Assembly: GCA_014337915.1 (NCBI GenBank)
Contig: QUBU01000021.1
Coordinates: 1-50,972 of the forward strand
From: Gammaproteobacteria bacterium
GTDB lineage: Bacteria; Pseudomonadota; Gammaproteobacteria; Steroidobacterales; GCA-2729495
Direction: 5' to 3'
DNA: 50,972 nucleotides
Numbering within the stretch: position 1 is the stretch's first letter; each line of letters opens with the position of its first letter. The position numbers were made by a program, and so were the translations under genes. Shown here in pieces: positions 548 through 38,725 of the stretch. Under the pieces are notes generated by a model that saw nothing but the letters and a program-made list of their open reading frames with translations, made no database searches and was not told where the DNA came from.

Positions 548-1558
548 ATGCGCATCGACCTGATCCTGGAAGCCAACTCTTCCCCTGAACGCATCGCCGA
601 ACTCGGCCGGCTCGCCGAGCAGCACGGGCTCGGCGCCATCTGGGTCTCCGGCATGCTCGATGCCCGCGATCCCTTCATGTGCTTCACCGAGGCGGCGCGG
701 ACCACCCGCCGCCTGCGCATGGGACCGATCGCCGTCAGTCCCTTCGAACTGCACCCGCTGAAGATGGCCAGTTCGCTGCTGACGCTGAACGAGGCCTGTG
801 GCGGGCGCGCGCAGATCGTCGTCGGCGGTGGCGGCGGCACCATGACGGCGATGGCGCTGCAGCCCACGCGCCGGGTGCGCGCGGTGCGCGAGACACTGGA
901 GATCCTCAGGCTCGCCGGCCAGGGCCGCCAGGTCAGCTACGAGGGCGAGATTTTCAAGCTGCGCCGCTACAACCCCTCCTGGGCGCGCAGCACGCCGCCG
1001 GTGGTCTACGCCGGCGCCAACCGCGACAGCATGCAGCGCATGGCGGCGCGCCATGCCGACGGCATCATGCTCTCCGACAAGATCGTGCCGCAGGTGCGCG
1101 AGGCGCGCGAAGTGATCGACCCGGTGCTGGCCGAGGCCGGACGTGACCGCAACAGCTTCCGCCTGACCAATTTCTGGGCCTGGCACGTCAAGGAAACCCG
1201 CGAGGAAGCCGAGCGCGAGGCGCGCATCTGGCTGGCGCTGCGCGGCGTGCTGCTGCGGCGCAATCACCACTACTTCATGGACGAGGCCGACATGGACCTG
1301 GTCGACAAGACACGCCCCGCCTTCTTCGATGCGCTGCGCCGGCGCAGCCCGGACATCGCCGGCGTGCCCGACCGCGTGGTGAAACTGCTGGTGGAGAACC
1401 TCACCTCCTGCGCCGCGCTCGACGAGCTCGACAAGGAGATCGACCGCCTGCGCCAGTTCCAGGCCGCCGGCCTCACGGAGATCGCGCTGCGCATCTACGA
1501 GAAGCCCGAGGAGACCATCCGCGTGCTCGGCGAACGGGTGGTGCCGGCGCTGCGCTGA
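548..1558 (+). CDS. LLM class flavin-dependent oxidoreductase (paralogue 1)
   Basis: A 336-residue luciferase-like monooxygenase-fold protein. Such enzymes use FMN or F420 to oxidise or reduce small organic molecules; the substrate here is unknown. Family signs are the opening MRIDLILEA, the HPLKMA segment near residue 75, the Gly-rich VVGGGGG turn near 93, and VVYAGAN followed by HADGIMLSD. It has exactly the same length as the protein at 6918 and is clearly homologous to it throughout. The start is supported by CGGAGG at 531-536 and by alignment with the paralogue. A putative operator lies just upstream. A GST-like gene follows 47 bases later and may be co-transcribed. Confidence 0.85.
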   Translation: MRIDLILEANSSPERIAELGRLAEQHGLGAIWVSGMLDARDPFMCFTEAARTTRRLRMGPIAVSPFELHPLKMASSLLTLNEACGGRAQIVVGGGGGTMTAMALQPTRRVRAVRETLEILRLAGQGRQVSYEGEIFKLRRYNPSWARSTPPVVYAGANRDSMQRMAARHADGIMLSDKIVPQVREAREVIDPVLAEAGRDRNSFRLTNFWAWHVKETREEAEREARIWLALRGVLLRRNHHYFMDEADMDLVDKTRPAFFDALRRRSPDIAGVPDRVVKLLVENLTSCAALDELDKEIDRLRQFQAAGLTEIALRIYEKPEETIRVLGERVVPALR

Positions 1559-13911: not shown

Positions 13912-13960
13912 CCGGCGGCCGGCACCGCGGTGGCCACCGCTCCTCCCTGCCGGTCCCAAT

Positions 13961-13978
13961 TGTCATAGAACTATGACA
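13961..13978. promoter_or_regulatory. Perfect 18-bp palindromic operator, copy 2
   Basis: TGTCATAGAACTATGACA has 8-bp perfect arms around AA. It sits 35 bases before the GTG at 14014 in a GC-rich intergenic gap, the expected place for a TetR- or GntR-type repressor site. It is the best copy of the motif also seen at 495, 29718 and 33412. Confidence 0.65.
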
Positions 13979-14013
13979 TTATCGGCGCAGTCCGCCAGAC
14001 CGACGCCGACACC

Positions 14014-15420
14014 GTGACCGCAGCCCCAGCCCCGCCCGCAACCGCCAGCACGACAGCAAGCGCCGCACCGGTGCCGTTCTCCACCCGGCTCGGCTGGGGC
14101 ATCGGCTCGCTCGGGGTCGCCATCCTCTTCAACAGCTACGCGGTGCTGCTGCTGTTCTACCTGACCGACGTCGTCGGCATGAAGGTGCAGGTCGCCGGCC
14201 TGCTGCTCACCATCGCCAAGCTCTATAACGTGGTCTGCGACGTGCCGATCGGCCTGCTGAGCGACCGTACCCACTCGCGCTGGGGCCGGCGCCGGCCATG
14301 GATGCTGGCCGGCTCCTTCCTCTGCGCGGCGGCCTTCATCGTCATGTTCAACGTGCCGCAGACCGGTACACCCGGGGATGCCGCCACCACCGCCTACGTG
14401 CTCGGCTCGCTGATCTTCTACGCCACCGCCTACAGCATGTTCAACGTGCCCTACATGGCCATGCCCGGGGAGATGTCCAACAGCTACCACGAGCGCACCG
14501 CGATCATGTCCTACCGCGTGGTGTTCATCCAGGTGGGTTACCTGATCGGCGTCGGCCTCGCACCACGTGTCGCCAGACTGCTGGGCGGCGGTGCGCTGGG
14601 CTACGGCCGGGTCGGCTGGATCCTCGGTGTGGCGGCCGGCATCGCCATGCTCGCCAGCTTCTTCGGCACCGCGCGGGCGCGGGCTACGGAGCGCGAGACC
14701 CGGCGCTACAGCGCGCGCGAGCAGTTCCTCAGCGCCATCGGCAACCGGCCGTTCCTGCTGCTCTCGGCCTTCAAGCTGCTGACGCTGTTTTCCGGCGCCA
14801 CGGTCACCGCCACCCTGCTCTATTTCGTGAAAAACGTGCTGCGCCACGATGCCGGCATCATGCTCTGGTACAGCATCGGCCATGCCGGCGCCGCGCTGCT
14901 CAGCGTGCCGTTCTTCTGGGTCAAGCTCTCGGCGCGTATCGGCAAGCACCGCGCACTGATGGTGGCGACCCTGGGCTTCCTGCTGGTCGCGCTGTCCTGG
15001 CTGCTGGCCGAGCCCGGCGAGAGCGAGTGGGTGTTCACGCTGCGGGCCTTCGCGCTCGGCGCCTTCGCCGCCGGCAAGCTGCTGCTCGGCATGACGCTGC
15101 TACCCGACATCATGGAATACGACAGCCTGCGCACCGGGATGCGCCGCGAAGGCGTGTACTCCGGTGCCTACAGCCTGGTGGAGAAAAGCGCCTTCGCGCT
15201 GAGCCCGCTGGTGCTGTCGCTGATCCTCGCGCTGTTCGGCTATCGCGAAAGCGTCAACAACGCCTTCGTCGAACAGTCCAGCGACGCGCTGTTCGGCATC
15301 TACCTCAACATCGCCATCGTGCCGGCCATCTGCAATGGCCTCGCCGCCCTGGTGCTGCTGCGCTGGAACCTCACCGAGGAGCGGCTGCAGGAACTGCGGC
15401 TGGCCGCTACGCGGGGCTGA
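14014..15420 (+). CDS. MFS transporter of the GPH (glycoside-pentoside-hexuronide:cation symporter) type
   Basis: A 468-residue, 12-helix carrier of the MelB-like group: LGWGIGSLGVAI at helix 1, and the family loop DVPIGLLSDRTHSRWGRRRPW (Asp near 72, RWGRRRPW). MLPDIMEYDSLRTG late in the protein is also typical of GPH members. GTG 14014 is the only sensible start. Its stop region overlaps the convergent sulfotransferase gene by 14 bases. Expression is probably controlled through the palindrome at 13961. Substrate could be a sugar conjugate, inferred from the family only. Confidence 0.88.
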   Translation: MTAAPAPPATASTTASAAPVPFSTRLGWGIGSLGVAILFNSYAVLLLFYLTDVVGMKVQVAGLLLTIAKLYNVVCDVPIGLLSDRTHSRWGRRRPWMLAGSFLCAAAFIVMFNVPQTGTPGDAATTAYVLGSLIFYATAYSMFNVPYMAMPGEMSNSYHERTAIMSYRVVFIQVGYLIGVGLAPRVARLLGGGALGYGRVGWILGVAAGIAMLASFFGTARARATERETRRYSAREQFLSAIGNRPFLLLSAFKLLTLFSGATVTATLLYFVKNVLRHDAGIMLWYSIGHAGAALLSVPFFWVKLSARIGKHRALMVATLGFLLVALSWLLAEPGESEWVFTLRAFALGAFAAGKLLLGMTLLPDIMEYDSLRTGMRREGVYSGAYSLVEKSAFALSPLVLSLILALFGYRESVNNAFVEQSSDALFGIYLNIAIVPAICNGLAALVLLRWNLTEERLQELRLAATRG

Positions 15421-27523: not shown

Positions 27524-29683
27524 TCAGGCCACCAGCCCATGGCGTAGCAGCGGCAGGCTGCGGATGCGCTGGCCAGTGGCAGCGAAGATCGCGTTGACCA
27601 CCGCCGGTGCGACCGGCGGCACGCCGGGCTCGCCGACGCCACCGAGTGGCAGGCCACCCTCGACGATGTCGACGACGATGCGCGGGGTTGTGGCCAGCGT
27701 GACCATGCGGTAGTCGTGGAAATTGCTCTCCACCGCCCGCCCAGACTTGATGTTGATGGCGCCATACAGCGCGGCAGAGAGCCCGAAGACGATGCCGCCC
27801 TCCATCTGCATGCGCACCACCTCGGGCTGCAGCGCCCGCCCGCAGTCGATGGCGCAGAAGACCTCCAGCACCTCGATCCTGCCCTCGCGCAGGCGCACAT
27901 GAGCTACCTGAGCCACGCTCGAGCCCTGGTCGTCCACCAGCGCCAGCCCGAGGCCCTCGCCCTTCGGCAGCCGCCGGCCCCAGCCGGCACGCTGCGCCAC
28001 TGTACGCAGGACCGCCTGGTGCCGCGGCTGCTTCCCGAGCAGGCCGAGGCGGAACTCCAGCGGATCGCTGCCGGCGGCATGGGCGATCTCGTCCAGCGCG
28101 CACTCCATGAAGAAGCCGTTGTGCGACTGGCCCACCGAACGCCAGGTGCCGATCGGCACATGCGTCGGCAGGTTGACCCAGTGCACGCGGTAGGCGCCGA
28201 AGGCATAGGGCGTGTCGTCGAAGGTGCTCACCGCCAGTGGATCCGGCTTGCCCTTCAGGCGCCCCGGCCGGCCCCACTCCATGATGGAAGCGCCGGCGAG
28301 CTTCACCGCCATGCCGGTGAGGCGGCCGGCATCATCGAGGTCGGCGCCGATGCGGGCGGCGAAGGCCGGGCGGTAGAAGTCGTGCTGCATGTCTTCGCTG
28401 CGCGACCAGATCAGCTTCACCGGCCGGCCGGGCACGGCGCGGGCGATGAGCGCCGCCTGGATGCCGTAGTCCACCGGCCAGCGCCGCCCGAAGGCGCCGC
28501 CGGCGAAGCTGCGCTGCACGCTCACCGCCGTCTTCGGCAGGCCGAGCGCGGCGGCCACCTCGTCGCGCAGACGGATCGGCCCCTGCGATGGCGCCCAGAG
28601 CTGGCAGCGACCCTCATTGAACAGCGCCGTGCAGGTCATCGGCTCCAGGGTGGCATGCGCGAGGTAGGGCACCTCGTATTCCATCTCCAGGTGCCGGGCA
28701 CCGGCGACCGGTGCCGCGCCCCGCTCCGCGCTCAGCACCCCGGGCTCGTCCAGCGCGCGCCGCAGCGCCGCCTGCAGCCCGGCCGAATCCACGGCATCGT
28801 TGGGGCCAGGCGCGAATTCCGGCCGCAGGGCGCGCAAGGCGGTATCCGCGCGCCAGAAATCCCCGGCCACCACGGCCACCGCATCGGGCAGGCGCACCAC
28901 GGCATGCACGCCCGGCATGGCGCGGGCCGGCGCCTCATCCACCGCAACCAGCGCGCTGCCGAAGACCGGGCTCGCCATGACGCTCGCCACCAGCAGGCCG
29001 GGCTGGCGCACGTCGACGCCAAACTCCGCGCTGCCGGTGACCTTGGCCGGCACGTCCTTGCGCGCCTGGTCGCGCCCGAGGTGGCGCAGCTCCGCATCCG
29101 GCCGCAGTACGACCTCGGCCGGCACCGGCAGCCTGGCCGCCGCCGCCACCAGGGCCGCGAAGGGCTGACGCCTGCCGCTCGGCCGGTGCAGGACCGCGCC
29201 GTTTTCCGTGGTGCATTCCGCGGCCGGCAGGCCCCAGCCACTCGCTGCCGCCTGGCACAGCAGCGTGCGGGCCGTGGCGCCGAGCTGGCGCAGATGCTGG
29301 TAGTGGCCGCGCACGCTCATGCTGCGCCCGGTGGCCTGGATACCCTTCATGGGATTGATGAAGCGCTCGTCGGCCCAGGACTGGCGCACTTCCACCCGCT
29401 CCCAGTCCGCGCCGAGCTCGTCGGCGAGGATCAGCGGCAGCGAGCTGTGCACGCCCTGGCCGACCTCGAGTTCAGGATTGGTGATGAGCACCCGGCCGTC
29501 GGCGCCGATCTCGAGGTAGGCGGCGAGCTGCGGGTCGGGCCAGGCGGTGCCGCCTGCGGTGGCCGCCTCGGCCGGGCGCAGCCCCAGCCACAGGCCGGCC
29601 GCCGAGCCGCCCGCCACCACGACGAAGTCGCGGCGGCTCAGGGCCGGTACGGAACGCTCAGCGGGCTGTCCTGGCGCGGTCAT
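27524..29683 (-). CDS. Molybdenum hydroxylase large subunit (isoquinoline 1-oxidoreductase beta / aldehyde oxidase type)
   Basis: A 719-residue xanthine-oxidase-family subunit with a Tat signal (SRRDFVVVAGGSAAG near residues 16-30), as in IorB-type periplasmic enzymes. Molybdopterin contacts include ELEVGQGVHSSLP, FAGGAFGRRW, GTWRSVGQSHNGFFME and the catalytic Glu685 in GGVGEPGVPPVAPAVVNA. It would hydroxylate an aromatic heterocycle or oxidise an aldehyde using water. The usual partner, a two-2Fe-2S small subunit, is not encoded next to it or elsewhere in the window. First gene of the four-gene minus-strand operon, divergent from the MFS gene at 29750. Confidence 0.88.
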   Translation of the reverse strand: MTAPGQPAERSVPALSRRDFVVVAGGSAAGLWLGLRPAEAATAGGTAWPDPQLAAYLEIGADGRVLITNPELEVGQGVHSSLPLILADELGADWERVEVRQSWADERFINPMKGIQATGRSMSVRGHYQHLRQLGATARTLLCQAAASGWGLPAAECTTENGAVLHRPSGRRQPFAALVAAAARLPVPAEVVLRPDAELRHLGRDQARKDVPAKVTGSAEFGVDVRQPGLLVASVMASPVFGSALVAVDEAPARAMPGVHAVVRLPDAVAVVAGDFWRADTALRALRPEFAPGPNDAVDSAGLQAALRRALDEPGVLSAERGAAPVAGARHLEMEYEVPYLAHATLEPMTCTALFNEGRCQLWAPSQGPIRLRDEVAAALGLPKTAVSVQRSFAGGAFGRRWPVDYGIQAALIARAVPGRPVKLIWSRSEDMQHDFYRPAFAARIGADLDDAGRLTGMAVKLAGASIMEWGRPGRLKGKPDPLAVSTFDDTPYAFGAYRVHWVNLPTHVPIGTWRSVGQSHNGFFMECALDEIAHAAGSDPLEFRLGLLGKQPRHQAVLRTVAQRAGWGRRLPKGEGLGLALVDDQGSSVAQVAHVRLREGRIEVLEVFCAIDCGRALQPEVVRMQMEGGIVFGLSAALYGAINIKSGRAVESNFHDYRMVTLATTPRIVVDIVEGGLPLGGVGEPGVPPVAPAVVNAIFAATGQRIRSLPLLRHGLVA

Positions 29684-29717
29684 CGGGCGGGGAAACCTCG
29701 GGGCCGGGTCTGCATGT

Positions 29718-29735
29718 CATTATAACAATATGATA
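29718..29735. promoter_or_regulatory. Putative 18-bp operator, copy 3, in a divergent promoter
   Basis: CATTATAACAATATGATA lies in the 66-base AT-rich gap between the molybdenum hydroxylase operon and the MFS gene at 29750. Its core AACAAT matches AACGAT of the copy at 495, and its right arm matches that of the copy at 33412. It overlaps TATGAT, a likely -10 for the plus strand only about 15 bases before the ATG. Confidence 0.4.
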
Positions 29736-29749
29736 AATTTCCACAGCCT

Positions 29750-30952
29750 ATGACTGCCGCAGCGCGTTTCGCCTTCCCGACCCTGTTCGCGGTGGTATTC
29801 ATCGACCTGGTCGGCTTCGGCATCGTCATCCCGCTGGTGCCATTCTACGTCGAGCGGCTGGGGGCCGGCCCGGAGCTGATCACCCTGATCATCGCGCTGC
29901 ACGCGCTCTGCCAGTCGCTCGCCATGCCGCTGTGGGGCGCCGTCAGCGATCGCTACGGCCGGCGCCCGGTGCTGCTGGTGAGCATGCTGGGCCACGCCGG
30001 ATCGTACCTCATGATGGGCTTCGCCGATTCGCTGTGGATGCTGGCGCTGGCGCGCATCATCAGCGGTGTCACCGCGGCCAACCTCTCCACCGCCTACGCC
30101 TACATCACCGACATCACCAGCCCGGCCGAGCGCGCCGGCGCCATGGGCAAGATCTCCGCGGCCTTCGGCCTCGGTTTTGCGGTGGGCCCGGCGATCGGCG
30201 GCCTGCTGGCCGGCGGCAGCACCATCGCCGAAGCCAACCTGATGCGCCCGGCGGTGGCCGCGGCGGCGTTCTCGCTGGTCGCCGCACTGGCCATCTGGTT
30301 CTTCCTTCCCGAGACGCACCACGCGGCCGCGCGGGCGGCGGCACGGAGCGAACGCCAGGGCCTGCTCGCGGACCTGCGCCGCGTCACGGCCCGCCCGGTG
30401 ATCGGCATGATGCTGGTGCTGGCGCTGATCGTCGTGACCTTCATGGCGGTGCGCGAGTCGATCTTCCCGCTCTGGGCCTATTACCGCCTGGACCTCAACG
30501 CCCGCGAGATCGGCATCACGCTCGGCTACAACGGCGCGCTCATCAGCGCCGTGCAGTTCCTCGGCATGGGCCGCCTGAGCACGCGCTACGGCGAACTCGG
30601 TCTGGTGAAGGCGGCGGTGCTGCTGTTCGCGACCGCCTGGGTGGGGCTGTCGCTCTCCGGGAACATGTTCCAGTGCATGCTGGCGCTGACGGCACAGGGC
30701 CTCGGCACCGCCTTCTTCCAGAGCAGCATGCAGACGCTGATCTCCAAGCGCGCCGCGGCTGCCGAGCGCGGCCTGGTGCTCGGCGTCTACCAGTCCTCGA
30801 GCGCCCTGGCACGCTTCATGGGCCAGGCCAGCGCCGGTACGCTGTTCGGGCAGATCGGCATGAACGCGCCCTTCCTCATCGGCGCCAGCGCCATGGCACC
30901 AGCCCTGTGGCTGGCGCTGCGCATCGGGCGCCACACGGAGCAAGCAACATGA
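29750..30952 (+). CDS. MFS transporter, tetracycline-efflux (TCR/DHA1) type
   Basis: A 400-residue, 12-helix major facilitator with VVFIDLVGFGIVIPLVPFY at helix 1 and loop motif GAVSDRYGRRPVLL, followed by ARIISGVTAANLSTAYAYITDIT and the antiporter-type GPAIGGLL near residue 145. This layout matches TetA-like drug or metabolite exporters. There is no convincing Shine-Dalgarno before the ATG and a -10-like TATGAT lies at 29730, so the message may be nearly leaderless. The stop overlaps the next ATG (ATGA). Confidence 0.88.
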   Translation: MTAAARFAFPTLFAVVFIDLVGFGIVIPLVPFYVERLGAGPELITLIIALHALCQSLAMPLWGAVSDRYGRRPVLLVSMLGHAGSYLMMGFADSLWMLALARIISGVTAANLSTAYAYITDITSPAERAGAMGKISAAFGLGFAVGPAIGGLLAGGSTIAEANLMRPAVAAAAFSLVAALAIWFFLPETHHAAARAAARSERQGLLADLRRVTARPVIGMMLVLALIVVTFMAVRESIFPLWAYYRLDLNAREIGITLGYNGALISAVQFLGMGRLSTRYGELGLVKAAVLLFATAWVGLSLSGNMFQCMLALTAQGLGTAFFQSSMQTLISKRAAAAERGLVLGVYQSSSALARFMGQASAGTLFGQIGMNAPFLIGASAMAPALWLALRIGRHTEQAT

Positions 30953-31303: not shown

Positions 31304-32596
31304 TCAATCCAGCACCCGCCCCCGCGTCTCGATCGCCCAGGGCATGAAGGCCAGTCCCAGCAGCGGGATGAAGCCTACGTAGAACAGCACGTCCACCGCG
31401 GCGCTGGTGCCGCGCGCGGCAATGGCGCCCACCATGAAGGGACCCACCGCCGCCACCACCCGGCCGATGTTGTAGCAGAAGCCGGCGCCGGTGCCGCGCA
31501 GCCGTGTCGGGAACAGCTCCGGCAGGTAGTAGGTGAAGCTGCCGAAGACACCGAACACCGTGAGGCCGATCGCGAAGTACAGGTACAGGCGCGTCTGCGG
31601 CGCCAGGTCGAGACCGAAGGTGGCGAAGATCGCGGCCGCCGAGGCGATCCAGTAGAGGCGGAACATCGCCTTGCGGCCGAGGAGCTTCGCCGCCGGGATA
31701 GTCAGCAGCGTGCCGATGAGGCCGCCGAGGTTGAACCAGCTGGTCGCCAGCGTCTTCCAGTGCTCGATCAGCGCCAGGGTCTCGCTGGTGCCGAGGCCGC
31801 GGGCCTCGGCCGCCGTGCGGGCCAGGCCGCCGGCCACCACCGGGATGAAGGCATTGCAGCTCCACCAGGTCAGCAGCGCCACCAGCGCCATCAGGAAACC
31901 CGAGAGCGTGGCGCGGCGCAGTTCCGGGCTGAACAGCTCGGCGATGCGCGCATGGCGGTCGGCGAGGTTCTTCCAGCGCTCCGGCTCCCTGACGAACAGG
32001 CGCACAGCGAACGCCGCCGCCGCCGGCAGCAGGCCGAACAGGAACACGTAGCGCCAGGACTGCTCCGGGCTGTCGGCGAACCAGTTGCCGGCCACCTGCA
32101 GGTTGACGAAGGTGGCGAGGAACAGGCCCATGGGCGCGGCGGTGTAGAGCAGCGCACCGGCCTCCACGCGCTTCGACTCGGGCACGGTCTCGGCGACCAT
32201 CGAGGCCCCGGCCGCCCACTCCCCGCCGATGCCGAGCGAGGCGACCACGCGGAACACCAGCAGCCACCAGATGTTGGGCGCGAAGGCGCAGGCGGCGGTG
32301 CCGACCGCGTAGAGCAGCATGGTCAGCAGTAGCGTGCGGCTGCGGCCGATGCGGTCGCAGACCAGGCCGAAGAGCACGCCGCCGGTGGCCCAGCCGAGCA
32401 GCAGCACCGAGGTGAGCAGCCCGGTCCAGTACAGCGTCGCCTGCTTGGCCTCCGGCGAGCCGAGCGGCAGGCCGAGCAGCGTCGGCACGCAGTTCGGCGC
32501 CACGTAGTTGAACAGCAACCCGTCGAAGACGTCGAAGCCCCAGCCCAGCCAGGCGGCGAACAGCACCGTCCACTGGTAGCGGCTGAAGCCGAGCAC
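31304..32596 (-). CDS. MFS transporter, aromatic-acid/sialic-acid symporter-like
   Basis: A 430-residue, 12-helix carrier with WLGWGFDVFDGLLFNYVAP (the acidic helix-1 motif of AAHS and related symporters), VCDRIGRSRTLL, GIGGEWAAGASMVAE and LPELFPTRLRGTGAGFCYNIGR. These are typical of proton-coupled organic-acid uptake. GTG 32596 follows the gntR stop with no gap, so the two genes are coupled. It is probably the carrier controlled by the adjacent GntR regulator. Confidence 0.88.
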   Translation of the reverse strand: MLGFSRYQWTVLFAAWLGWGFDVFDGLLFNYVAPNCVPTLLGLPLGSPEAKQATLYWTGLLTSVLLLGWATGGVLFGLVCDRIGRSRTLLLTMLLYAVGTAACAFAPNIWWLLVFRVVASLGIGGEWAAGASMVAETVPESKRVEAGALLYTAAPMGLFLATFVNLQVAGNWFADSPEQSWRYVFLFGLLPAAAAFAVRLFVREPERWKNLADRHARIAELFSPELRRATLSGFLMALVALLTWWSCNAFIPVVAGGLARTAAEARGLGTSETLALIEHWKTLATSWFNLGGLIGTLLTIPAAKLLGRKAMFRLYWIASAAAIFATFGLDLAPQTRLYLYFAIGLTVFGVFGSFTYYLPELFPTRLRGTGAGFCYNIGRVVAAVGPFMVGAIAARGTSAAVDVLFYVGFIPLLGLAFMPWAIETRGRVLD

Positions 32597-33352
32597 TCAG
32601 CGCGCCTTGCGGGTCAGGTGCACGTGGTGGTGGTAGCGGTCGCCGCGGTACCAGGCGACCAGGCGCTCGACGGGACGCCGCTGGCTGTCGAACACCACCA
32701 GCCGGATGTGCACCAGTGGCGCGCCCACCGTGGTGTTGAGCAGCGAGGCCAGGCGCGCATCGGCGAGCGTGGCGCTGATGACCTGGTCCGCCGCGGCGAT
32801 GTCCACGCCTTTGCGCTCCAGCAGGTTGAGCATCGGGCTCTCGTTGAGTTCGCGCAGGTCGAAGCGCACCCTGAGCGCGGCCGGCACGTAGGTGATGACG
32901 TAGCCGACCGGGTGGCGGTCGGTGAGCCGCACATGCGAGGCGCGCTGCACGCGGGCACCCGGCGCCAGCTGCAGGTCATGCGCGGTCTCCGGGTCGGCCT
33001 CGACCTCGGTGACCTCGGCCTGGGCGACGCGGCTGGTCTTGCCGAGGCGCTCGACCTTGCGCAGCAGCTGGTCCATCTCGCCGATCACCGGCGCGTCGGC
33101 CAGGTCCTCGACCACGAAGGTGCCGCGCCCCGGCTGGCGCAGCACCAGTCCCTCGTCGACCAGCATGTCGACCGCCTTGCGGGTGGTGATGCGCGAGACC
33201 TTGAACAGGCGGCACAGCTCCTCTTCGGTCGGCAGCCGGCCGCCGGGCTTGTAGCTGCCCTGGTAGATCCAGTCGCGTACGGTGGAATAAACCTGGATGT
33301 AACGCGGGCTCTTGATCGCGTGGTCGATCAGCTCGCCCCTTCTGGCCACCAT
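32597..33352 (-). CDS. GntR family regulator with UTRA ligand domain (HutC subfamily)
   Basis: A 251-residue one-component regulator. The N-terminal winged helix-turn-helix spans about residues 17-82 (RLPTEEELCRLFKVSRITTRKAVDMLVDEGLV, then QPGRGTFV). The UTRA domain follows, about 100-245, and would bind a small effector. It is divergent from the nitrilase-like gene, with a 109-base shared control region that contains operator copy 4. It is the only classical one-component DNA-binding regulator in the window. Confidence 0.92.
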   Translation of the reverse strand: MVARRGELIDHAIKSPRYIQVYSTVRDWIYQGSYKPGGRLPTEEELCRLFKVSRITTRKAVDMLVDEGLVLRQPGRGTFVVEDLADAPVIGEMDQLLRKVERLGKTSRVAQAEVTEVEADPETAHDLQLAPGARVQRASHVRLTDRHPVGYVITYVPAALRVRFDLRELNESPMLNLLERKGVDIAAADQVISATLADARLASLLNTTVGAPLVHIRLVVFDSQRRPVERLVAWYRGDRYHHHVHLTRKAR

Positions 33353-33411
33353 GCAAGGTACTCCGCTCGGCCTGCGTCATCCGGCCGCAGCGCCGGTGGC
33401 AGACGTCCCCA

Positions 33412-33429
33412 TGTCATGTGGATATGATA
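33412..33429. promoter_or_regulatory. Putative 18-bp operator, copy 4, in the gntR divergent region
   Basis: TGTCATGTGGATATGATA shares both arms with the perfect palindrome at 13961 except one base. It overlaps TATGAT, a plausible plus-strand -10, and lies 32 bases before the ATG at 33462. A second ATGTCA follows at 33430. Its place beside gntR makes that protein the first candidate ligand. Confidence 0.5.
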
Positions 33430-33461
33430 ATGTCAAAGCCCATAACAAGGAGACAAGAATA

Positions 33462-34520
33462 ATGACGACCCCGACCGAGCCCATGGTCCGCGCCGATGGC
33501 ACCTACCCCACGGTCGACCTGCGCAAGCCGGTGACCTTCGCCACCGTGGTGCAGACCAGGGTCCATGGCGTCGACGGCGCCAACCCGGGCCCGGGCCTGC
33601 GCAGCAACCTCGACTACTTCCTCGAGGCTATCGACATCGCCCAGGGCTACGGCGGCCGCAGCGACCTGCTGCTGTTCCACGAATTCCCGATCACCGGCTT
33701 CTCCGACTGGACCCGCGAGCAGCACTACCGCATCGCCATCGAGGTGCCGGGGCCGGAAGTCGACGAAGTGGTCAGGAAGGCGAAGCAGTACAACTGCTAC
33801 ATCGTCTTCGGCACCTACGCCCGCGACGAGAAGGACTGGCCGGGGCACATCCTGCACCTGATGGTGATGGTTACCCCCGACGGGCGGGTCATCAAGCACT
33901 GGAAGCAGCGCAACGTGCGCGGCATGTTCCCCGGCTCCGAGCAGTACACCTCGGTGATCTACGACGTCTACGACCGTTTCGTGGAGATGTACGGCCTCGA
34001 CGCCGTGATCCCGGTGGAGCGCACCGACATCGGCAACATCGCCATGTCGGCGGTGCAGTTCGAGCCGGAGCTGTTCCGCTGCATGGCCATGAAGGGCGCG
34101 GAGATCATCTGCCGCGTGGCCACCGGGGGCTTCGAGAGCGACGATATGCGCCTGACCTCTTACCACAACAGCGTCTACACCATGATCTGCAACAACTCGG
34201 TGAGCACCCACGGGCGCAATCGCGGCTTCTTCGAGGAAGAGGCCTTCGGCGGCCCCGGCCGCTCGGCCATCTACGGCCCGCGGGGCGTCGAGCTGGCAAA
34301 GGCCGGCGCCTTCGAGACCAAGAAGATGGCGGTGATTCCCATCGCCGAGTTCCGCGCGCGCCACCGCATCCCGGACCTGCACATGCAGCTGTACCGCCCG
34401 GTGCTCGACCAGTACCGCGAGCGCTACGACCACAGCCTGTACCTGAAGCAGCTGCCGAAGGACAAGCGCGACGCCTTCCGCTACTTCCAGGAAAACGCCC
34501 GCTGGACGCACTTCTGGTGA
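33462..34520 (+). CDS. Nitrilase/amidase-fold protein with the catalytic Cys replaced
   Basis: A 352-residue carbon-nitrogen hydrolase-fold protein. Of the Glu-Lys-Cys triad, Glu74 (LLLFHEFPITG) and Lys148 (KHWKQRN) are in place. The segment IAMSAVQFEPELFR aligns with the usual C-x5-PE nucleophile motif but has Ser196 where Cys is expected; Cys217 (AEIICRV) lies later and does not take that position. It may be a non-hydrolytic relative or use another residue. MAMKGAE and KHWKQRN resemble aliphatic amidases. AAGGAG at 33447-33452 fixes the start. It is divergent from gntR and probably controlled by it. Confidence 0.83.
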   Translation: MTTPTEPMVRADGTYPTVDLRKPVTFATVVQTRVHGVDGANPGPGLRSNLDYFLEAIDIAQGYGGRSDLLLFHEFPITGFSDWTREQHYRIAIEVPGPEVDEVVRKAKQYNCYIVFGTYARDEKDWPGHILHLMVMVTPDGRVIKHWKQRNVRGMFPGSEQYTSVIYDVYDRFVEMYGLDAVIPVERTDIGNIAMSAVQFEPELFRCMAMKGAEIICRVATGGFESDDMRLTSYHNSVYTMICNNSVSTHGRNRGFFEEEAFGGPGRSAIYGPRGVELAKAGAFETKKMAVIPIAEFRARHRIPDLHMQLYRPVLDQYRERYDHSLYLKQLPKDKRDAFRYFQENARWTHFW

Positions 34521-34554: not shown

Positions 34555-35883
34555 GTGAAGCTCAGGCCCGACGCCGCCGGTGAGCGCATCGGGCCTTTCT
34601 GGATCACGCCGGGCTGGACGCGGCTCAACGCCGCCACGGTATGGGCCGCGTCCTTCCTCACCATCGGGCTGGCCGCCTTCATCAGCTTCGTGCAGCCCTA
34701 CCTGCTCACCGAGGTGCTGCAACTGCCCGATGCCGTCCAGGGGCGCCTCACCGGCTCGCTGGGCGCGCTGCAGGAAATCATCGTCATCTGCAGCGCCAGC
34801 TTCTTCGGCGTCTGGTCCGACCGCAGCGGCCGCCGCCGCGTCTATTACCTCGGCTTCCTCGCCATGGCGGCCGGCTTCGCCATCTACCCGCTCGCGGACA
34901 GCGTCGCCGAGCTGGTGCTGTTCCGCTGCGTGTTCGCGCTGGGGATCGCCATGGCGCCGCTGATGCTCAGCGCCTGTGTCGTCGATGCCATCCAGGAAGT
35001 GTCGCGCGGCCGCTGGATCGCCTCCAACACGCTGTTGCAGGGACTTGGCGTGGTCACCATGTCGGTGCTGCTGGCGAAGATGCCGGCCTGGTTCGAACTG
35101 CGCGGCGTGCCGCCGGCCTCCGCCATCCGCTACGCCTTCTGGATGGCCGCGGCGCTGGCGCTGCTGGCCGCGGCGGTGGTGGCCACCGGCCTGCCGCGGC
35201 TCGCCCCCCGCAATATCCGCGGCGCCGGCCGCGGCGCCTGGCGGCTGGTGGCGCAGGCGCTCGGCCTGGCGCGGCGCAACCCGAGCCTCGGCATCGCCTA
35301 CGGCGCGGCCTTCATCGGCCGCGGGGATTTCACCATCGTCGGCGTGTTCTTCTCGCTGTGGCTGGTGCAGGCCGGCCGCGATGCCGGCATGAGCTCCGCC
35401 GAGGCGCTGGCCACGGCCGGCAAGCTTTTCGGCCTGATGCAGGGCGCCGCCATGCTCTGGGCGCCGGTGATGGGCATGGTGGTCGACCGCCTGCGGCGCC
35501 TCGACGTGCTGTGCCTGGCACTGGCCATCGCCGGAGTGGCCTACCTGGCCATGGGCCAGGTGACACGACCCTTCGATGCCAGCTTCATCCCCTTCGCGCT
35601 GCTGCTCGGCATCGGCGAGATGAGCGTCATCGTCGCCGCCGGCGCCCTGCTCGGCCAGGAAGCGCCGCAGGAGAACCGCGGACCGGTGATCGGCTTCTAC
35701 AATGCGGTCGGGGGCGTCGGCATCCTCTTCGCCACCTTCGTCGGCGGCCAGGTGTTCGACGGCATCGGGCGCACCGCGCCGTTCAGCCTCATGGGCCTGC
35801 TCAACCTGGTGCTGCTGGCCGCGGCACTGCTGGTGCGGCTGCGCGCGGCGCGCAGTGCGCGCACGGTGCCCTCATGCAACTGA
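34555..35883 (+). CDS. MFS transporter
   Basis: A 442-residue, 12-helix major facilitator. Loop 2-3 reads FFGVWSDRSGRRRVYYLG, the standard family motif; helix 1 FLTIGLAAFISFVQPYLL and a later VMGMVVDRLRRLDVLCLA loop are also visible. I cannot place it in a substrate-defined subfamily. GTG 34555 lies 34 bases after the nitrilase-like stop, and its end overlaps the aldo/keto reductase start by 10 bases, so three genes form one operon. Confidence 0.85.
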   Translation: MKLRPDAAGERIGPFWITPGWTRLNAATVWAASFLTIGLAAFISFVQPYLLTEVLQLPDAVQGRLTGSLGALQEIIVICSASFFGVWSDRSGRRRVYYLGFLAMAAGFAIYPLADSVAELVLFRCVFALGIAMAPLMLSACVVDAIQEVSRGRWIASNTLLQGLGVVTMSVLLAKMPAWFELRGVPPASAIRYAFWMAAALALLAAAVVATGLPRLAPRNIRGAGRGAWRLVAQALGLARRNPSLGIAYGAAFIGRGDFTIVGVFFSLWLVQAGRDAGMSSAEALATAGKLFGLMQGAAMLWAPVMGMVVDRLRRLDVLCLALAIAGVAYLAMGQVTRPFDASFIPFALLLGIGEMSVIVAAGALLGQEAPQENRGPVIGFYNAVGGVGILFATFVGGQVFDGIGRTAPFSLMGLLNLVLLAAALLVRLRAARSARTVPSCN

Positions 35884-36848
35884 AGGCGCTGGGACATTCC
35901 GGGCTGCGCGTCTCGGCAGTCGGCCTCGGCTGCATGAACTTCGGCATGGTCTGCAACCAGGCGGCGACTCGGGCCATCGTCGATGCGGCGCTCGATTGCG
36001 GCATCAACTTCTTCGACGTCGCCGACATGTACGGCGGCCCGCTGGGCGAAGCCGAGGCGCTGCTCGGCCGCGCCCTGGGCGCGCGGCGTCGCGAGGTGAT
36101 CCTCGCCACCAAGTTCGGCGGCCAGCGCGGCAGCCGCGAGCCCGGAGTGCGCGGCGGCGGTTCGCCGGCCTACATCACCCGCGCGGTCGAGGACAGCCTC
36201 AGGCGCCTGGGCACCGACTACATCGACCTCTACCAGCACCACTTCCCGGACGCCGCCACACCGCTCGAGGACACGCTGCGGGCACTCGATGACCTGGTCA
36301 CGCAGGGCAAGGTGCGCCACCTCGGCTGCTCGAACTATGATGCCGGGCAGCTGAAGGCGGCCAGCATCGCCGCGCGCAGCGGCCGCACCCACAGCTTCGT
36401 CAGCGCACAGAACCGCTACAGCCTCCTGTACCGCGACATCGAGCGCGAGCTGGTGCCCATTGCCCAGGCGCAGCAGGTCGGCATCCTGCCCTACTTCCCG
36501 CTGGAGAGCGGCCTGCTGACCGGCAAGTACCGGCAGGGCGCGACGCCGCCCGCGGACTCGCGCTTCGCACGCTGGCGCGGTGGCGGCGCCTTCGTCTCGC
36601 CCGGGCGCTGGGCCACGGTGGCACAGCTCGAGGAATACGGCGGCCGGATTGGCCGCTCGCTGCTCGACATCGCCATCGGCTGGCTGGCGGCACAGCCCTG
36701 GGTGTCGAGCGTGATCGCCGGCGTCACCAGTCCCGGGCAGGTCCGCGCCAATGTGCAGGCCGCTTCCTGGGAGCCGACCGCGGAAGACCTCGCGCGCATC
36801 GCCGCCATTGCACCAGTGCCGCCAGCGGCGCCGGCACCAGGGGGCTAG
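35874..36848 (+). CDS. Aldo/keto reductase
   Basis: A 324-residue NADPH-dependent (alpha/beta)8-barrel oxidoreductase. The tetrad is visible: Asp48 and Tyr53 (FFDVADMYG), Lys80 (LATKFGG) and His123 (IDLYQHH). HLGCSNYDAGQL and the C-terminal VSSVIAGVTSPGQVRANVQA cofactor loop match the YhdN/Tas-like class. ATG 35874 lies inside the end of the MFS gene. It ends directly against the convergent gene at 36849. Substrate probably a carbonyl intermediate of the local pathway (inference). Confidence 0.9.
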   Translation: MQLKALGHSGLRVSAVGLGCMNFGMVCNQAATRAIVDAALDCGINFFDVADMYGGPLGEAEALLGRALGARRREVILATKFGGQRGSREPGVRGGGSPAYITRAVEDSLRRLGTDYIDLYQHHFPDAATPLEDTLRALDDLVTQGKVRHLGCSNYDAGQLKAASIAARSGRTHSFVSAQNRYSLLYRDIERELVPIAQAQQVGILPYFPLESGLLTGKYRQGATPPADSRFARWRGGGAFVSPGRWATVAQLEEYGGRIGRSLLDIAIGWLAAQPWVSSVIAGVTSPGQVRANVQAASWEPTAEDLARIAAIAPVPPAAPAPGG

Positions 36849-38320: not shown

Positions 38321-38725
38321 TCAGTGCAGCCGTTCCCGCTGGCGCAGCAGCGCCGAGCGCAGGCGCTCGATCAGGTCGCGCTCGATATAGGGCTTGGTGA
38401 GGTAGTCGGCGACATCCGCGCGCATGGCGCGCACCGCGGTGGGCACGTCGCCGAGCCGCGTGAGGATCATCGCCGGGGCGAACACATTGTCCTGGCGCAG
38501 CCTGGAGATCAGCTCCAGCCCGGTCATGCCGGGCAGCTCCACCTCGGAGATCACACAGCAGTTCTCGCCACAGGTGGGGATCTCCTGCAGCAGGGCCTCG
38601 CCGGACTGGTAAGTGCGGGTGTTGTAACCGGCGCGCTCCAGCAAGGCCTTCAGGCTGGCGCTGTCGCCCGGGTCGCTGTCGACGACCAGTACGGTGTAAT
38701 CGCCGGGAATGAATTGCGTGCCCAT
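38321..38725 (-). CDS. Stand-alone response-regulator receiver domain with Asp-to-Glu change
   Basis: A 134-residue single-domain receiver, FixJ-like, with no output domain. The acidic pair (Asp16, Asp18 in VVDSDPGD), Thr89 (ILTRLGD) and Lys111 (YLTKPY) are present. The phosphorylation site, normally Asp before x-x-LPG, is Glu61 (ISEVELPGMTG). Glu at this place often mimics the phosphorylated state, so this may be an always-on or phosphorylation-independent adaptor. No histidine kinase is nearby. The gap 38726-38860 before it contains an AT-richer block, CTTAGGTAGTTGTCCGTAT on the minus strand, of unknown meaning. Confidence 0.88.
   Translation of the reverse strand: MGTQFIPGDYTVLVVDSDPGDSASLKALLERAGYNTRTYQSGEALLQEIPTCGENCCVISEVELPGMTGLELISRLRQDNVFAPAMILTRLGDVPTAVRAMRADVADYLTKPYIERDLIERLRSALLRQRERLH

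Follow-up and report, generated by a model that had tools for sequence, protein, structure and literature searches.

Proteins of the GntR/UTRA type contact their operators in dimeric form and bind less tightly in the presence of ligands, as set out in passages of PMC4333415 and PMC4918961. For most members of the HutC subfamily, section 11 of PMC4494728 gives the operator as a palindrome with GT and AC steps 4 nt apart, and it names exceptions. HutC, the histidine utilization repressor of Pseudomonas, is described in part of PMC12977541 as repressing several promoters, namely hutU and hutF. Here, we consider a window of 50,972 bp, the entire contig C19 of a gammaproteobacterial genome (2.72 Mb in 35 contigs), which holds four copies of a 20-bp palindrome, roughly TTGTYAT-N6-ATRACAA, together with a gene for a regulator of this type, gntR (Table 1). 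We regard it as likely, with a probability of about 0.8, that these sites are operators of one regulon under the ligand-released GntR/UTRA repressor encoded at 32597-33352. The proposed targets comprise a nitrilase and, around it, transporters and oxidoreductases.

The regulator and its described relatives

The window regulator scores 73.8 bits against PF00392 (cut-off 27) in its N-terminal winged helix-turn-helix (wHTH) and 97.2 bits against PF07702 (cut-off 23.8) in its C-terminal UTRA domain. Its domain architecture equals that of NagR/YvoA and DasR, which also provide its closest named solved structures (2WV0, 4U0V, 9I0V and 4ZS8), and the HutC regulon of Pseudomonas is likewise governed by a GntR wHTH with a C-terminal ligand domain. 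It is not HutC itself, as it reaches only 108.3 bits on the HutC equivalog TIGR02018, under the cut-off of 220. Nor is it a member of the YtrA subfamily, whose proteins have short C-terminal domains, whereas the window protein has a full UTRA at residues 104-241.

The operators, in contrast, differ. The GT and AC steps of the window motif lie 12 nt apart, against the 4 nt that PMC4494728 treats as the HutC-subfamily norm; the HutC operator TGTA-N2-TACA, as it appears in the portion of PMC12977541 on this protein, is far shorter, and the dre site of NagR and DasR, GTGGTCTAGACCAC in the relevant part of PMC4333415, is different. SdhR, one of the HutC-subfamily exceptions, also has a palindrome wider than the norm, TCTTATGTCTTATATAAGACATAAGA as printed in section 11 of PMC4494728, but its sequence is unlike the window motif, the likeness being judged by operator only. 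In the YtrA subfamily, too, section 5 of the same source places GT and AC far from the palindrome centre. NagR Arg48 corresponds to Arg54 of the window GntR, and an arginine stands there in 16 of 17 aligned sequences. Conversely, NagR Arg38, one of two arginines reading the half-site guanine pair, aligns with Glu44, and none of the 17 has an arginine at this point, which is position 28 of the HTH, where arginine is the most frequent and yet not a universal HutC residue. The absent arginine fits the missing GG step of the window motif, as far as an alignment can tell; its absence alone is not rare, because other HutC members frequently lack Arg38, according to passages of PMC4918961. Among the papers listed, our literature search showed no apparently relevant report of an operator with TGTCATA and TATGACA, no GntR regulon of Rieske/TonB-dependent genes and no comparable HutC or sphingomonad regulon; for GntR, nitrilase, Rieske and Sphingopyxis it gave work on isoprene. 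Operator spacing has reportedly been treated for AraR by Jain and Nair in 2013.

Four palindromes in the window

The initial annotation had described an 18-bp element before four start codons. All four look-alike sequences lie where it placed them, although the palindrome measures 20 bp (13960-13979 and so on) and the site at 29718 departs at its left end, with CAT for TGT, from the proposed common consensus TGTYATANNRATATGAYA. Three of the sites (494, 29717 and 33411), and not two as had been claimed, fall in divergent regions. The 13960 site has perfect arms, and 16 of its 18 core bases pair; it precedes the start codon of the GPH symporter by 34 bases if this is GTG 14014, or by 91 if it is GTG 14071, the start that our gene caller, a script of our own, prefers. 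Overall, the distance from site to start ranges from 14 to about 200 bp.

Table 1. Candidate operators and genes of the proposed regulon in the window (contig C19) and elsewhere in the genome.
Feature	Position	Strand	Remarks
Candidate operator ATGTTATAACGATAGGACAA	494..513	.	Upstream of LLM oxygenase, between divergent genes
Luciferase-like (LLM) monooxygenase, proposed target	548..1558	+	Pfam PF00296
Candidate operator TTGTCATAGAACTATGACAT	13960..13979	.	Upstream of GPH symporter
GPH-family cation symporter	14014..15420 (start GTG 14014 or 14071)	+	Pfam MFS_2
Molybdopterin-binding (xanthine-dehydrogenase-like) protein	27524..29683	-	Pfam MoCoBD_1/2; divergent from 29750
Candidate operator TCATTATAACAATATGATAA	29717..29736	.	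3 mismatches; between divergent molybdoenzyme and MFS genes
MFS transporter, proposed target	29750..30952	+	Pfam MFS_1
MFS transporter	31304..32596	-	Pfam MFS_1; directly downstream of gntR
GntR/HutC-type regulator (GntR wHTH + UTRA), proposed repressor	32597..33352	-	Pfam GntR and UTRA above gathering
Candidate operator ATGTCATGTGGATATGATAA	33411..33430	.	gntR/nitrilase divergent promoter
Nitrilase/amidase-like carbon-nitrogen hydrolase, proposed target	33462..34520	+	Pfam CN_hydrolase
MFS transporter	34555..35883	+	Pfam MFS_1
Aldo/keto reductase	35874..36848	+	Pfam Aldo_ket_red within frame 34641-36848
MFS transporter with divergent GNAT gene	C13:17496		Site upstream
Kelch/PKD/cytochrome-like protein	C17:263747		Site upstream
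DUF4437/cupin protein	C9:179947		Site upstream
VanA-type Rieske oxygenase	C34:42696		Site upstream, 3 mismatches
220-aa protein without Pfam match	C21:50571		Site upstream

The query TGTCATA-N4-TATGACA, which has 14 informative positions around a 4-base centre and is itself one of the four sites, finds exactly four matches in the window at up to four mismatches, and these are the four sites (0, 2, 2 and 4 mismatches). All are intergenic, the whole-window count equalling the intergenic one. The 30 intergenic segments, 3,592 bp in all, were shuffled 1000 times with dinucleotides preserved. Three matches were observed at up to two mismatches versus a shuffle mean of 0.00, and four at up to four mismatches versus 0.26; no shuffle reached three and four, respectively. 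The four window sites are real and lie beyond chance.

Aligning 38 distinct sites from orthologous and further promoters gives about W-T-R-T-Y-A-T-R-N4-Y-A-T-R-A-Y-A-W, with the RT and AY steps at -8,-7 and +7,+8, that is, 12 nt apart; in the symmetrised set T occurs at -7 in 75/76 and at -4 in 76/76 cases, figures inflated because the sites were chosen by likeness. A reading of the element as two canonical GT-N4-AC sites set back to back was rejected, the requisite inner step (AC at -2,-1 or GT at +1,+2) being present in just 12/38. Overlapping matches 8 bp apart occur at window 29709/29717 (29709-29736) and, in a Sphingopyxis record discussed below (L156), at 1225/1233 and 15867/15875; from their placement, they suggest a third, weaker half-site beside the palindrome. 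Section 17 of PMC4494728 reports a third half-site at 7-12 nt for the family.

Scanning the whole genome with TTGTYAT-N6-ATRACAA at up to two mismatches gave eight places, against seven and three for the spacer controls N5 and N7. As the regulon initially proposed would have it, none of the eight falls inside a gene, as against 4/7 for N5 (counting its seventh place, window 33430, as intergenic by coordinates) and 1/3 for N7. In four genomes of the genus, the N6, N5 and N7 patterns found 38, 31 and 18 places at this threshold and 11, 3 and 1 at up to one mismatch. Use of the reversed pattern as the only background was dropped, because the spacer controls had given 31 and 18 places against 38. 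Moreover, little can be concluded from intergenic position by itself, as AT-rich matches to the motif are intergenic in four gntR-minus genomes too (11/11).

Conservation and co-occurrence with gntR

Each window site is kept upstream of orthologues in related genomes, in agreement with the initial proposal, and, where checked by BLAST, the flanking genes proved to be orthologous. Before the LLM orthologue, the site is identical in G006 and 17/20 in G003; the GPH site is identical in G003 and G006, 19/20 in G001 and 17/20 in G007. The gntR/nitrilase site is kept in G006, G003, G007, G009, G001, G032 and G011, and as the variant GTATTAACATCATG in G016, G020, G023 and G028. The MFS/molybdoenzyme site is kept in G006, G007, G009, G023, G011 and, by eye, G032, as well as in two genomes of another family, G037 and G052; the gene pair itself flanks it in G006, G007, G023 and G037 (49-87% identity). 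No site at up to four mismatches was found before the MFS match of G020. Between the window's genome and G003, the 14-position core is identical at 91/98 positions over seven promoters, versus 421/560 in the gapped flanks; for G007 the figures are 49/56 and 200/320 over four promoters, with the G007 flanks near saturation because unrelated flanks align at 0.585, and both comparisons are biased because the sites were found by motif matching in both genomes. Ungapped flank identity overstated the contrast and was replaced by these gapped figures.

The presence of sites follows that of gntR. We compared 60 genomes, including the window's own and mostly MAGs, using a strict pattern at up to two mismatches and defining a gntR orthologue by at least 59% identity (or the 76% fragment in G016). 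The 15 genomes with an orthologue hold 26 strict sites versus none for the reversed control, and 13 of them have at least one, the exceptions being G011 and G020, where gntR is present and no strict site was found; the 45 without hold 13 versus 14 (Fisher p about 1e-5, uncorrected for kinship). Within the genus, strict sites accompany gntR in 6/6 genomes (G000, G001, G003, G006, G007 and G009) and occur in 0/4 of those without it (G002, G004, G005 and G008). A relaxed pattern at up to two mismatches gave site/control counts of 8/0 (G000), 9/0 (G003), 13/2 (G006), 8/3 (G007), 8/2 (G009) and 4/4 (G001) in the gntR-bearing members and 3/0 (G002), 4/0 (G004), 1/1 (G005) and 3/5 (G008) in the others. 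In gntR-bearing genomes of other genera it showed no clear excess over the reversed control (G011 6/5, G014 22/17, G016 3/4, G020 11/15, G023 6/7, G028 4/4, G032 2/2). The data show that the sites exist, exceed what shuffled DNA yields, are conserved and co-occur with gntR.

It could be argued that the regulon is real but that the palindrome is recognised by another transcription factor whose gene lies elsewhere, with gntR no more than one of its targets. Such a factor would account for the GT-N12-AC geometry, which is unlike that of most HutC operators as PMC4494728 presents them; the divergent promoter of gntR itself contains a site, as that of any target would; and G005 keeps most of the MFS-promoter site while having no gntR. 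The G005 case may reflect an assembly gap, since the nitrilase orthologue is missing there as well. However, the presence of sites and of gntR match exactly in the genus. In G037, moreover, four intergenic sites (up to three mismatches) share one 37-kb region in which two of the 31 called genes look regulator-like, gntR and, by eye, a LysR-type gene at the far end. Within the window itself, gntR alone among 42 called genes has a Pfam domain of a DNA-binding regulator (two have no Pfam match and one, at 38321, is receiver-only). In light of this and the evidence below, we hold an unseen factor to be improbable. A further genome, G035, has a 42% gntR homologue flanked by two sites on one contig.

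A natural deletion of gntR

The nitrilase loci of G002, G004 and G008 (L093, L092 and L094) yielded no gntR match. Instead, the MFS gene that otherwise follows gntR (81-88% identical) adjoins the nitrilase promoter, starting about 90-120 bp from the nitrilase gene (85-86% identical). At this promoter the left half-site GTCAT is replaced and a TATGAT element is kept, leaving the remnant TATGATAATGTCA in G002 and G004 and TATGATACCGACA in G008. By comparison of these loci, they represent a natural deletion of gntR with decay of the operator. That the arm is lost where gntR is missing suggests that it is GntR that needs the left arm, and this is the strongest single argument we have. It also tells against another factor as the binder, for the nitrilase promoter persists and yet loses its half-site.

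The same loci bear on the idea that the palindromes are mere core promoter elements, namely -10 boxes where promoters diverge, and resemble each other simply because promoter sequences do. The sites do stand before genes, the TATGAT part survives the loss of gntR, most of the MFS site is conserved in G005, and the AT-rich matches of gntR-minus genomes are, as noted, intergenic. Yet shuffles of the same intergenic DNA fail to yield the palindromes, gntR-minus members of the genus lack the strict site, orthologous promoters of diverged genomes keep the arms, and where gntR is lost the left arm is lost too, but not the -10-like part. Scans for sigma-70-like promoters also gave hardly any at the sites: three of the four regions had none and the fourth a single weak minus-strand match, a result that counts against our preferred reading as well. 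We therefore consider this interpretation very improbable.

GntR might instead bind the sites as an activator, or act in both ways, as the varying distance between site and start would allow. We doubt this, since the nitrilase promoters have persisted where both gntR and the operator arm are gone, and since regulators of the same type, NagR and HutC, are described as repressors in the consulted portions of PMC4333415 and PMC12977541.

Under our preferred reading of GntR as a repressor, a GntR dimer would most likely bind the 20-bp TTGTYAT-N6-ATRACAA at or near the promoter core. It would thereby repress gntR itself, the nitrilase operon divergent from it and, in the same contig, the MFS/molybdoenzyme pair, the GPH symporter and the LLM oxygenase, as well as other genes for uptake and oxygenases outside this contig. 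By analogy, a catabolic intermediate bound by the UTRA domain may release GntR from DNA. We infer direct binding, repression rather than activation, and the ligand from the patterns above; the initial suggestion of GntR as the regulator gains support from co-occurrence, the half-site loss without gntR and the sites before distant gntR homologues. To judge by spacing, the MFS transporter and aldo/keto reductase downstream of the nitrilase gene, for which the Pfam scan used the longer frame 33312-34520, probably belong to its operon; the TIGR00792 score of the GPH symporter is just over the cut-off.

A genome-wide set of proposed targets

The initial annotation envisaged one regulon over 33 kb; a regulon is supported, but its extent is larger and genome-wide. 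About nine promoters of the genome have the motif, four of them in the window (Table 1). One of the eight places at up to two mismatches, C17:256621, has no orthologous site in the site lists compared and may be due to chance. In relatives, sites also stand before TauD-like dioxygenases (G007, G009, G016, G023, G028 and G032; 76-99% identical to each other's query), TonB receptors (G006, G007 and G037) and a methyltransferase (G037 and G052). The kelch-type gene seems to be duplicated in G003 (L252 and L255, by the likeness of the protein starts), with a site at both copies. VanA-type Rieske oxygenases are abundant in the window's family, with up to eight matches per genome at E<=1e-60 in the 17 genomes searched; in the gntR-minus genomes, the search gave one 55% partial match in G005 and otherwise paralogues at 35-43% identity.

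In a gammaproteobacterial family about which little is known, these observations would place dispersed genes for catabolism and uptake under one switch and name its likely regulator. The substrate thereby becomes findable, as the compound releasing GntR is probably the inducer of the pathway, and the loci that lack gntR and have lost the arm offer a natural test case. The spacing, unusual for the family, is an exception to that of the usual HutC operators, which a structure could explain.

Promoters of distant gntR homologues

The own promoters of gntR homologues point independently to GntR as the regulator, as they have like sites above controls. Among 34 homologues in named records, the 330 bp upstream contain a best match at up to three mismatches in 10, versus 1 (reversed), 0 (N5) and 1 (N7) for the controls; with the ten closest (L145-L155) excluded, the count is 5/24 versus 1, 0 and 0. 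Examples are L160 (48% identity, one mismatch), L163, which is G017 (41%, two), and L159 (47%, three), while 17/34 show no match at up to four mismatches within this distance. That such sites precede the genes of distant homologues at a higher rate than any of the three controls again weighs against a different factor.

One such homologue, 50% identical, comes from the alphaproteobacterium Sphingopyxis panaciterrulae DSM 27163 (L156). At L156:1225-18395 its gene clusters with those for a Rieske protein (54% to that of the window's genome), a nitrilase (56%), an aldehyde dehydrogenase (55% to window 23512), a TonB-receptor-like protein and transporters. Eight intergenic motif-like matches (up to four mismatches) lie at five promoters of this record, against 2 (reversed), 1 (N5) and 4 (N7), and some of the elements seem longer than 20 bp. 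On this footing, a like regulon in Sphingopyxis is suggestive only. More generally, we lean slightly towards a HutC-subfamily repressor lineage with half-sites spaced about 8 bp wider than the norm, present in uncultured gammaproteobacteria and probably alphaproteobacteria including Sphingopyxis, and governing genome-wide oxygenases and transporters for a nitrogen-containing substrate. If true, the wider spacing means that the DNA-binding domains must sit differently, relative to each other, on DNA. Relatives of GntR also occur in MAG records titled Klebsiella pneumoniae, Rheinheimera tuosuensis and Marinimicrobia (L174, L195 and L158), titles that look doubtful.
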